This document shows, piece by piece, positions 7,576 through 12,865 of a stretch of DNA of 33,540 nucleotides. The notes beneath the pieces are model-generated. The model did not search any database, had not been told where the DNA came from, and saw nothing but the letters and a program-made list of their open reading frames with translations. The stretch is from Actinomycetota bacterium. GTDB lineage: Bacteria; Actinomycetota; Acidimicrobiia; Spongiisociales; UBA5794. The position numbers were made by a program, and so were the translations under genes. Each line of letters begins with the position of its first letter. The first letter of the stretch is position 1. The stretch spans positions 1 through 33,540 of the forward strand of contig JAQCAA010000007.1 in NCBI GenBank assembly GCA_027728645.1, in the 5' to 3' direction.

Positions 7576-7597
7576 GCGCCGCTCGCTGCGCTCGCTC

Positions 7598-7762
7598 AGA
7601 GGACAGACCGTTCGCTTTGCTCTCTTACGGAGGACAGACCGTTCGCTTTGCTCTCTTACGGAGGACAGACCGTTCGCTTTGCTCTCTTACGGAGGACAGA
7701 CCGTTCGCTTTGCTCCCTCACTATCAGAAGTCCGTCCTCTGTCCTCTGTCCTCTGTCCTCTG
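7598..7762. repeat. Composite repeat element A: four 31-bp units then four 7-bp GTCCTCT units
   Basis: 31-bp units starting at 7599, 7630, 7661 and 7692 (GAGGACAGACCGTTCGCTTTGCTCTCTTACG; the last diverges at its 3' end); GTCCTCT x4 at 7734-7761. Confidence 0.95.
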
Positions 7763-7809: not shown

Positions 7810-10470
7810 ATGTCTGTATTTGACAAAATCTTGCGTGCCGGCGAGGGAAAACGCCTCAAAGAGCTTGTTCAGCTTGCCGAGCGTGTCAACGCGCTCGAGG
7901 CTGACGTTGAGGTGCTCTCCGACGAGGATCTCAAGGCTCGAACGCAGTGGTTCAGAGATCGGCTTGCCGATGGCGAGACCCTCGACGACATCGAAGCTGA
8001 GGCGTACGCCACTGTTCGTGAGGCAGCAAAACGTGTGCTCGGCCAGCGCCACTACGACGTTCAGGTTGTTGGGGCAGGAACCTTGCATCGTGGCATGATC
8101 GCTGAGCAGAAGACAGGCGAGGGAAAGACACTTGTTTCTACGATGCCTGCGTACCTCAACGCGCTGTCAGGCAAGGGTGTCCATGTCATCACAGTCAACG
8201 ATTATCTCGCCGCCCGTGACGCGGCGTGGATGGGCAACATCCATCGATTTCTCGGCCTCGAAGTAGGTCTCATCCAGGCGTGGATGACACCCGAGGAGCG
8301 CCGTCCCGCGTACGCAGCGGATATCACCCACGGGACGAACAACGAATTCGGCTTTGACTACCTCAGAGACAACATGACCATGAATCCCGAGCACATGGTG
8401 CAACGGGGGCGGGCGTTCGCAATTGTGGATGAGGTCGACTCGATCCTGATCGATGAGGCGCGGACACCTTTGATCATTTCTGGACGCGTCGGAGAAACGG
8501 GCAAGTGGTATTCCGAGTTTGCCAAGATCGCATCACGTCTCCGTATTGAAGATCACTACGAGGTCGATGAGAAGAAGCGTCAGGTTGTGACCACCGAAGC
8601 CGGTGTCACCCGCGTTGAAAAGATGATGAACGTGGAGAACCTGTACGACCACGCAAACGTTGACTTCATTCACCACCTTGATGTTGCTCTGAAGGCCAAG
8701 ACGCTCTATCAACGCGACGTCGACTATCTCATCCGCGGCGGACAGGTAATGATTGTCGACGAATTCACCGGACGTGTTCTTGAAGGTCGGAGGTACTCAG
8801 AAGGCCTCCACCAGGCAATCGAGGCCAAAGAGGGCGTTGCGATCAAGGAAGAGAACCAGACTCTCGCGACGATTACGCTCCAGAACTATTTCCGCATGTA
8901 TGACAAGCTCTCTGGCATGACCGGTACCGCCATCACTGAGGAGGGCGAGTTTGTCGAGATCTATGGACTTGAGGTTGTTGTCATCCCAACCAACCAGCCG
9001 ATTGGACGCGTGGACCAGCCGGATCTCGTCTACGTCGATGAGGAAAACAAGTTCCAAGCGGTGGCCAACGACATCATCGAACGCCACGAATATGGTCAAC
9101 CAATCCTTGTGGGAACGGTTTCCATCGAGAAGTCTGAGAGGCTTGCAGATGCGCTGACACGCCGCGGCATCCCATTCGAGGTGCTGAACGCCAAGCAGCA
9201 TGAAAGGGAAGCCCACATCATTGCCCAGGCCGGCATGCCTGGCGCAATCACGGTTGCCACGAACATGGCTGGTCGTGGAGTCGACATCGCACTCGGAGGA
9301 AACGCCGAGCAACTCGCGGCAGCTGCGCTTCGTAAACAGGGTATCGAGACGACCGAACCGTCGTACGCCAAGCAGCTTAAGGAGCTGACAACCGAGTTTT
9401 CGATTGAAACGGAAAAGAACAGGGAAAAGGTGCTCGAGGCTGGCGGGTTGTACGTCCTTGGTACCGAACGTCATGATTCTCGACGCATTGACAACCAGCT
9501 TCGGGGACGATCCGGAAGACAAGGCGATCCAGGTGAGAGCCGGTTCTACTTATCTCTTCAGGATGATCTCATGCGCAGGTTCGCAAACGACCGTGTTGCA
9601 TCAATAATGTCTCGGCTCAAGATTCCGCCGGACGTCCCAATCGAAGCCAAGATGGTCTCCAAATCGATCGAGCGAGCGCAACGTCAGGTCGAGGGTCAGA
9701 ACTTCGAAATCCGAAAGAACGTTCTGAAGTACGACGAGGTAATGAACACACAGCGAAAGATCGTCTATCGCTGGCGGAATCAGATCCTTGAAGGCGACAA
9801 CACACAAGAGTTGCTTGGCGAATGGCGAAGCGAAGTCGTTGAGAGCACCGTGCTACAGATTGTCGGAGACGTCGACGCGTTCGACTGGGATTGGGATGAG
9901 TTGTCGGTTCGCATGAGTGCGTTGTACGACACCGCCATCTCAAAGTCGATGTTTGAAAACCCTGAGGATGTCGATGCCAATGAACTCGTGGACATGTTCC
10001 TCGAGGAGTCCGCACGCGCATACGAAAAGCGTGAAGCCGATCTCGGCGTCGATGTTGTGAGGGCTCTTGAACGTTCGGTGGTCCTGTCGGTCATCGACAA
10101 CAAGTGGCGCGAGCATCTCGCTGAGATGGATTACCTGCGCTCGGGTATCGGTCTGAGGGCGATGGGGCAGCGCGACCCACTCGTCGAGTATCAGCGAGAA
10201 GGTTTTCTGTTCTTCGAGGACTTTGTCGAATCAACAAAATCTGATGCAATCAGGTACATGTTCCACGTTGAGATCGCGGCTGCAAGCCCGCAGCCTGCGG
10301 CGAGCGGAGTGACGACGTCGAGTGCAAAGTCAGACGGAACGACCCGTCGGCAGGTTCAACGCACCGGCGAGAAGATCGGCCGCAATGATGACTGCCCCTG
10401 CGGGAGCGGCAAGAAGTACAAGCGCTGTCACGGCGCACCCGGTGCGGAACCGCTTCCCGCATCGGCATAG
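7810..10470 (+). CDS. secA: Protein translocase subunit SecA
   Basis: [105 protein letters not shown]-terminal [17 protein letters not shown] 7810 preferred over the ORF-track start at 7648, which lies in the repeat. Confidence 0.98.
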
Positions 10471-10552: not shown

Positions 10553-11665
10553 ATGGAACCAGTTGAACTTCGTGCGATCGTTGCTGACCTCGCTTCGCGC
10601 CTTGAAGACGCCAGGACGTTCCTTGACGTGGAGGGGAAAGAGGCTGAGCTTGTGGACCTTCGTGAGATCGTGTCGGAGCCCGACTTGTGGGATGACCAAG
10701 ACCGAGCACGAAGTGTTACGAGCAAACTCTCCCATCACGAAGGCATCATCAAGCATGTCGCCGATCTCGACCGAGCCGTGGAAGATCTCGGTGTGCTTCT
10801 TGGAATGGCGGTCGATGAGTCTGACGCAGAGGCCTTCGTTGAGGTCGAACGAGAACTCGGTGTGCTTGCGGCAGACCTTGCGCTGCTCGAGCGCGAATCA
10901 CTGTTTTTTGGACCGTACGACGACCGCCCTGCGATCCTCACCGTTTCCGTTGGAGCCGGAGGCGTTGATGCCCAGGATTGGGCAGAAATGCTCCTTCGCA
11001 TGTATCACCGCTACATCGAGCGGTCAGCCTTCACTTTTGAGGTTGACGAATATCAAGAAGGGGAGGAGGCAGGTATTAAGTCTGCCACTCTCACAATCCG
11101 AGGCGAGAACGCCTACGGCACCTTCGAATCCGAACGGGGAACGCACAGACTGGTCCGGATAAGCCCGTTTGACTCCCAAGCGAGGCGACACACCGCGTTT
11201 GCCGGCGTTGATGTGATTCCACAGGTCGATGTCGAAGACATGGAGATTGATGTCGAAGACCTGCGGATTGACACCTATCGAGCATCTGGTGCGGGTGGTC
11301 AGCACATCAACAAGACAGACTCAGCTGTGCGAATCACCCACCTTCCGACAGGGATTGTGGTTTCGTGCCAGGCAGAGCGGTCCCAGATGCAAAATAAGGC
11401 CAAAGCAATGCAGCTGCTCGTTGCTCGCCTCGCCGAACAAGCCAGACGGGAGCAGGCCGAGAAGGTCGCATCGATCCGAGGCGAGAAGCACGAGGCTGGT
11501 TGGGGTCGTCAGATCCGGTCCTATGTTCTTCAGCCGTACCAGATGGTCAAAGACCTACGAAGCGACTTCGAGATCGGCAACATCCAAGCCGTTCTCGACG
11601 GCGACATTGATGGCCTCATCGATTCCTACCTCCAGTGGCGCCGAGCCGAAATGTACGAGGCATAG
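10553..11665 (+). CDS. prfB: Peptide chain release factor 2
   Basis: SPF anticodon-mimic motif (RISPFDSQARRHTAF) and GAGGQHINKTDSAVRITHLPTGIVVSCQ; single uninterrupted frame. Confidence 0.95.
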   Translation: MEPVELRAIVADLASRLEDARTFLDVEGKEAELVDLREIVSEPDLWDDQDRARSVTSKLSHHEGIIKHVADLDRAVEDLGVLLGMAVDESDAEAFVEVERELGVLAADLALLERESLFFGPYDDRPAILTVSVGAGGVDAQDWAEMLLRMYHRYIERSAFTFEVDEYQEGEEAGIKSATLTIRGENAYGTFESERGTHRLVRISPFDSQARRHTAFAGVDVIPQVDVEDMEIDVEDLRIDTYRASGAGGQHINKTDSAVRITHLPTGIVVSCQAERSQMQNKAKAMQLLVARLAEQARREQAEKVASIRGEKHEAGWGRQIRSYVLQPYQMVKDLRSDFEIGNIQAVLDGDIDGLIDSYLQWRRAEMYEA

Positions 11666-11667
11666 GC

Positions 11668-11806
11668 AGAGGACAGATCGGTCGCTTTGCTCCCTTACGG
11701 ATGACAGATCGGTCGCTTTGCTCCCTTACGGATGACAGACAAGTCGTTTTGCTCCGCTGGAACGGTAGGCGCAAGGCGGCCTTCTGTCCTCTGTCCTCTG
11801 TCCTCC
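11668..11806. repeat. Composite repeat element B: three 31-bp units then three 7-bp units
   Basis: 31-bp register at 11669, 11700 and 11731 (GAGGACAG / GATGACAG / GATGACAG ... TCGCTTTGCTCCCTTACG; third unit decayed); GTCCTCT, GTCCTCT, GTCCTCC at 11786-11806. Confidence 0.93.
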
Positions 11807-11905
11807 GTCGCCCGCTCGTAATCCGCTGGTTTATTGGAAGCGCCACTACGCTTTCGCTTGGCTGGGATATGGGCCCCGACAACAGCCATTCTTGGATTTT
11901 TACAG

Positions 11906-12865
11906 ATGATCAAACTCGAAAACGTTACAAAGACCTACCCAGGGGGGACGGTCGCCGTCAAGGACGCCACGCTTGAGATTGCCAAGGGCGAGTTTGTGTT
12001 TCTTGTTGGTGCGTCGGGTTCGGGGAAGTCGACGCTGATTCGACTCATCATGCGGGAAGAGCAGCCAACGAACGGCGACATCTGGGTCGCAGGAAAACAT
12101 GCATCCGACCTTCCAAGCTGGAAAGTGCCTCATCTCCGTCGCTCCATCGGGACCGTCTTCCAGGATTTCAAGCTGCTTCCTACGAAGACCGTGTACGAAA
12201 ACGTCGCTTTCGCAATGGAGGTCACTGGCAAGCACCGCACGGTCATTCGAAACCAGGTTCCCCAGGTGCTGAAGCTCGTGGGGCTCTCAACAAAGGCCGA
12301 TCGGCTGCCGCGTCAGCTCTCCGGTGGTGAGCAGCAGCGAGTTGCTGTGGCACGAGCCTTTGTGAATCGGCCACTCATTCTGCTCGCGGATGAGCCGACA
12401 GGAAACCTCGACCCTGCGACCTCCGTTGGCATTATGCGGATCCTCGACCGGATCAATCGCACCGGAACCACTGTGGTGATGGCAACACACGACCACGCCA
12501 TCGTTGATGCCATGCGAAGACGGGTAGTTCAGATTGATCGCGGACGGATTACCCGCGATGAGTCCAGGGGCATCTACGAAACTCAGGCTCAGCCGAGCGT
12601 GCCAGTGACCACTGAGGTGCGGACCGTTGTCGAAGAATTCGGTGGTGAAGAACTCAACGATGAGTCTCCTGTTGACTCCGTCGTCACCGAAGTGGATGAC
12701 TTGGGCACCGCTGAAGCGGTTGCGTACGACCTGCTACGCAGCATTGATGAAGCTCCGGAACCATTGGTTGCCGACGAGATTTTCAAGGGCTCCGAAGAGT
12801 CAGACATGTCCTACGACATGGACTCCGCTGAAACCGAGAACGATTCGACGGACGGTGGCGCATGA
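11906..12865 (+). CDS. ftsE: Cell division ATP-binding protein FtsE with long acidic C-terminal extension
   Basis: [25 protein letters not shown], Walker [56 protein letters not shown]; followed by ftsX. Confidence 0.95.

Follow-up and report, generated by a model that had tools for sequence, protein, structure and literature searches.

The closest described counterparts of the element analysed here are the intervening sequences (IVSs) of 23S rRNA that carry an S23p open reading frame, as in Coxiella, Leptospira and others, where an inverted-repeat stem brackets the S23p gene just as it does in the elements of this study. In the Coxiella IVS, tandem GACAGAT heptamers are placed ahead of the S23p frame within a stem that is cut by RNase III, and the same 2016 paper called the function and origin of S23p-coding intervening sequences unclear (PMC4990558). 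S23p is a four-helix-bundle ring protein, with structure 2GSC described as a homopentameric toroid, and its family (PF05635) is related to Avd (PMC10053308), a DGR accessory protein of the same four-helix fold. Heptamer repeats are known, besides, from Xanthomonas (GGGAATC; PMC4692102), from the STRRs of Calothrix and Nostoc (PMC4692102) and from Beggiatoaceae (TAACTGA; PMC4679880). In the accessible portions of these two papers, such repeats are likewise intergenic, of few units, distributed over many loci and often near gene ends, and they are interpreted as SSRs, G-quadruplexes or regulator sites, with no mention of S23p in those portions. Within mainly open-access coverage, heptameric repeats and intervening sequences came together only in the Coxiella paper, and no open-access paper with a general link between heptamer repeats and S23p genes was found; earlier subscription work may exist. 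REP/RAYT elements and BIMEs offer a further comparison, being palindromic, intergenic and dispersed, as are the repeats considered here.

The window, by which we mean the whole stretch of 33,540 nucleotides analysed, is one contig (C79) of a 1.95-Mb MAG of Acidimicrobiia that is 94% complete (G000), and the nearest named relatives of its PrfB are Acidimicrobiia MAGs. Locus B, the repeat under study, sits in the prfB-ftsE spacer instead of the 23S rRNA location of an IVS; a sister copy, locus A, lies between a response regulator (RR) gene and secA. Elements of this kind depart from the 23S rRNA IVSs in standing between protein genes at stop codons, with no 23S rRNA at any of 20 S23p loci tested, and in having many gene-less copies, of which locus B is an example. 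They differ from the known heptameric SSRs in that the arrays are tied to S23p genes, are often inverted arms and have a C-N-G core; from REP/RAYT and BIME in that the arms are heptamer arrays, not one fixed REP sequence, and no RAYT is present; and from Avd/DGR systems in the absence of a reverse transcriptase from the genome. Locus B is probably, together with locus A, a gene-less representative of S23p/IVS-type hairpin elements, a family that is genome-specific, and the kinship of locus B with S23p elements is well supported.

Locus B and its orthologous sites

The coordinates that the earlier note had given for a composite repeat between prfB and ftsE are correct (Table 1), and the repeat itself is genuine, far beyond what chance would give. 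The element starts 1-2 nt past the prfB stop and is bounded by an inverted-repeat stem, head and tail being exact 11-bp inverse complements, and its fold beats 200 of 200 shuffles (z -3.0). Nothing in the locus resembles a remnant of an S23p ORF, and no Rfam family was found there. Its left end TAGGCAGAGGACAGATCGG, including the TAG, is common to three copies in G000 (window:11663-11681, L009 and L029), and several element tails in that genome finish in CTCTGCCTA, which may mean that the ends of the element bring a stop codon of their own. At the sister locus, the mechanical secA ORF begins at a TTG within the repeat (window:7648-7810), the likely start being the ATG at 7810.

Table 1. Features of locus B and sister locus A, in positions of the window
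Feature	Coordinates	Strand	Remark
Locus A (response regulator-secA)	7597..7762	+	head, four 31-nt units, four-heptamer tail
prfB, host gene upstream of locus B	10553..11665	+	stop TAG at 11663-11665
Head CAGAGGACAGA of locus B	11667..11677	+	inverse complement of tail
31-nt unit 1, locus B	11669..11699	+	heptamer core and 24-nt body
31-nt unit 2, locus B	11700..11730	+	97% to unit 1
31-nt unit 3, locus B	11731..11761	+	only 68% to unit 1, therefore degenerate
Loop, locus B	11762..11782	.	
Tail, locus B	11783..11809	+	tandem heptamers TCTGTCC / GTCCTCT; GTCCTCT, GTCCTCT, GTCCTCC at 11786-11806
ftsE leader	11810..11905	+	aligns by eye with hairpin-less relatives
ftsE	11906..12865	+	

The apparent 31-mer resolves into a 24-nt body plus one heptamer, and the unit spacing of 38 at C146 and C77 is one heptamer more. 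At C156 and C89 the body is joined to a different heptamer, CCGATGA. In the congener G002, the orthologous prfB-ftsE spacer has it with GATCATCG, and the tail there is changed as well (TCGATGATCG). A match between 31-mer and 7-mer copy numbers, from which coupled expansion had been suggested, holds at A (4/4) and B (3/3) and fails elsewhere: the counts over six loci with the body, which include C52 (2/2), C89 (3/4), C146 (2/11) and C156 (2/≤1), show no coupling. Adenine-specific mutagenesis as in DGRs was considered and rejected, the differences between units being ordinary with transitions commonest.

In many genomes of the family the prfB-ftsE spacer measures ~90-155 nt and contains no heptamer array, and other relatives have a different repeat hairpin directly past the prfB stop, of the type CAGCTTT (G001), CAGTACT (G014), CTACCGG (G017), CGGTATC (G004) or CAGNNNN (G015), the fillers of the last showing a partial match between the two sides of the hairpin. 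The RR-secA site presents four different heptamers in four congeners and spacers of 52-80 nt in sister genera; in G002 the hairpin at this site encloses a 23S_rRNA_IVP gene (S23p, PF05635, E 1.5e-34). At orthologous sites, the position of the hairpin persists and its sequence changes. Sites that are empty or differently filled in relatives support the proposal, made from the window alone, of a dispersed, structured intergenic family.

Hairpins that recur at the same place, right past stop codons, with different sequence could also be understood as host 3'-end elements, selected for termination or mRNA protection and rebuilt repeatedly from local repeats, with S23p unrelated or co-opted. The fold of locus B agrees with this explanation, as do the arms in G015, which vary between neighbouring units yet match across the hairpin. 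We nonetheless consider it quite improbable: heptamer arrays are missing altogether from the spacers of several relatives, the fold of locus A does not stand out from shuffles (z -1.07), and the tie to S23p described below is strong. Moreover, a search for a T-run terminator at locus B found none, which makes an intrinsic terminator unlikely there; of the termination role once suggested for the repeat, it is a 3'-end hairpin function that may still apply.

Dispersal of the heptamer and its C-N-G core

Tandem heptamers of the sequence CAGAGGA/TCCTCTG occur at dozens of loci in G000, which shows the hallmark of heptameric SSRs or STRRs, 7-bp units in tandem at a large number of intergenic sites. 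The heptamer-pair pattern is found 7 times in the window as compared to 1.3 in shuffles, none of 100 of which reaches 7. Genome-wide, the 15-mer tail CTGTCCTCTGTCCTC gives 129+97 matches (226) at no more than 2 mismatches, against 3+3 (6) for the reversed control, and locus B used as query returns 60 matches over dozens of contigs. In 304 kb sampled from the genome there are 26 arrays at lag 7 and 0 at lags 5, 8 and 11. Contigs C15, C27, C32, C40, C53, C107 and C139 terminate within heptamer arrays, where the assembly breaks, and array counts are therefore lower bounds and copy numbers underestimated.

The heptamers have C-N-G in common, present in 48 of 49 arrays of the family when shuffling expects 24 and attains at most 34 in 2000. 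The C and the G are the least variable heptamer positions, with neighbouring units differing there in 9% and 7% of cases, respectively, as compared to 16% at the middle base and 20-30% at the four filler bases. Period-7 C-N-G runs in G000 number 26, above every other X-N-Y pattern, and there are 0 at periods 8, 10 and 11. The idea that C-N-G strictly holds for every S23p arm was discarded, for it fails outside the family (GCAATTC, GTAGAAA).

Two further repeat arrangements were seen in the same genome. At three loci (L237:3075-3178, L247:1346-1466 and L247:12332-12462) a second composite begins with (CAGAGGA)n and, past a short loop, continues with (CTGAAAG)n or (CTGAGAG)n; only the C-N-G core is common to its two arms, whose filler is not complementary. 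A separate palindromic REP-like family of the approximate form CACCCTCCTGGCTCGC..CTCGCCCGTCCTCCCTCAAGGGAGGAC is dispersed in the genome (L074:60-100 and 270-310, L083:200-250, L046:1-60) and sometimes adjoins heptamer arrays.

Dispersed and intergenic repeats with inverted ends, some of them recurrent (TAGGCAGAGGACAG / CTGTCCTCTGCCTA), bring to mind a REP/RAYT- or MITE-like element moved in trans by a DNA transposase or reverse transcriptase. Such an origin seems very improbable to us. RAYT (Y1_Tnp, PF01797) and the reverse transcriptase (PF00078) that a DGR would involve, which are the two families searched, are both absent from the 94%-complete genome; the recurrent ends were seen by eye at some loci, with neither target-site duplication nor matching transposase established. 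Where the earlier note suggested looking for a linked transposase or RAYT-like gene, the RAYT is missing and the linked gene appears to be that of S23p, located elsewhere in the genome; mobilization in trans, which the note had also raised, would have in S23p a plausible factor.

Heptamer arms at S23p genes

Only two PF05635 genes are present in G000 and both lie within inverted heptamer arrays. The arms of the gene on C65 are built from CAGAGGA, the exact heptamer of loci A and B, while those on C83 are of the CCGCCTA/CGGTAGA type found in other hairpins of the genome. Across the order, an inverted-repeat score of at least 30 is reached at 39 of 49 S23p loci and at 2 of 422 control genes, and 7-nt (lag-7) arrays are found in 74 of 98 S23p flanks against 35 of 844 control flanks, other lags giving 1-7 of 98. 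Ordinary control genes were used as the baseline because heptamers shared between loci inflate a null of mismatched pairs of S23p arms; only 12 of 49 loci exceed the 99% point of this null, a result that weighs against the association. A later set of 24 S23p loci from other actinobacterial families, examined at the same thresholds, gave inverted repeats at 15/24 and lag-7 arrays in 26/48 flanks (other lags, 0-4). In other phyla, inverted repeats accompany 19 of 21 S23p loci, with a 7-nt period that is less dominant (16/42 flanks).

The association extends to arrays lacking a gene. With no more than 1 mismatch, 34 of 58 gene-less arrays match S23p arms from the genome in which they occur (null 4.1, maximum 23 of 2000) and 24 of 58 have no such match; an inverted partner scoring at least 24 exists for 16 of 47, and many are without a clear partner. 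Array presence and PF05635 presence coincide among 60 genomes (23/7/5/25, P=6e-6) and by genus (14/2/3/14, P=9e-5), with P values that are optimistic because the genomes are related and with a cut-off of 10 for array presence that was set after the counts had been seen. The C-W-G and G-W-C counts were combined for this comparison as array indicator only, since G-W-C is itself present in many arrays and does not make a clean control. One genome (G006, 96% complete) has 142 C-W-G heptamer matches and no PF05635 gene detected; the gene may have been lost, or its role may be served by an unrecognized protein.

The S23p gene is co-directional with its upstream neighbour at 37 of 46 loci (P 4e-5). 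Its upstream arm lies at a median of 2.5 nt from the neighbour's stop codon and, where the downstream gene is convergent, the stop of that gene is at a median of 3 nt from the other arm, the neighbours being called by a simple ORF rule. The element, usually in the host gene's sense direction, is therefore likely to belong to the 3' region of the transcript. Arms at S23p loci have a median length of 4.9 units.

Coevolution of heptamer and S23p was rejected: heptamer type does not correlate with S23p sequence (rho -0.04, P 0.23) except above 80% identity, that is, among near-identical proteins. In genomes of other actinobacterial families (G156, G306, G232, G189), where a single genome can have as many as 11 matches, several S23p genes are stop-broken or truncated, which we take as signs of copy turnover. 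In a Leptolyngbyaceae genome (G060, L312 and L331), G-rich (GGGGGAT) and GATTGGA heptamers flank S23p genes and resemble the repeats already known from cyanobacteria; the G-rich case at L312, a single one, is consistent with a common origin.

The main rival explanation considers the arrays to be ordinary SSRs, arisen from replication slippage and tolerated near stop codons, with the S23p genes as passengers. Heptamers are a common bacterial SSR class for which polymerase slippage has been proposed (PMC4692102, PMC4679880). Copy numbers vary here, arrays are uniform within loci and many of them are single, without an inverted partner, all of which slippage would accommodate. Slippage in place, however, predicts neither the inverted pairing around S23p genes nor the agreement of dispersed arrays with the S23p heptamers of their own genome; a C-N-G core that stays while the filler changes is not simple duplication, and the same 24-nt body is dispersed. 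On balance, we consider slippage an unlikely explanation.

S23p as candidate trans-acting factor

On the preferred reading of an S23p/IVS-type family, a complete element comprises two inverted arrays of ~4-5 heptamers each that bracket one S23p gene. It sits immediately past the host gene's stop codon, usually in the sense direction, and gene-less copies retain arms built from the same heptamer, or just one such arm. By analogy with the 23S rRNA IVS, the arms may pair as a long stem in the RNA, and RNase III may cut them as it does in Coxiella. The predicted S23p fold (pLDDT 96.7) matches 2GSC and Avd, and the ring could bind the C-N-G cores that recur every 7 nt; recognition of filler bases is unlikely because heptamer type does not track S23p sequence. 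The protein might help gene-less copies to spread or be homogenized. Points that weigh against the preferred reading are the lack of an S23p frame at locus B, the many gene-less arrays with no clear inverted partner, those that match no S23p arm of their genome, the array-rich G006, the S23p arms devoid of C-N-G and the independence of heptamer type from S23p sequence. About five units per arm would suit a pentamer, a fit that is only suggestive because four-unit arms are as common.

A broader proposition is possible, if doubtful: the S23p ring might be the trans-acting factor of a very widespread hairpin class that does without transposase or reverse transcriptase and settles exactly at stop codons, with one protomer per C-N-G core per 7 nt, and the cyanobacterial STRRs, the GGGAATC repeats of Xanthomonas, the TAACTGA repeats of Beggiatoaceae and the 23S rRNA IVSs might all be its products.

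Lastly, the link between heptamers and S23p has importance in joining two puzzles, the intergenic heptamer repeats of many bacteria and the nature of the S23p-coding intervening sequences. It gives S23p, whose structure (2GSC) has been solved, a concrete candidate ligand. The link is checkable in any genome with PF05635 genes, and it predicts new copies at stop codons.
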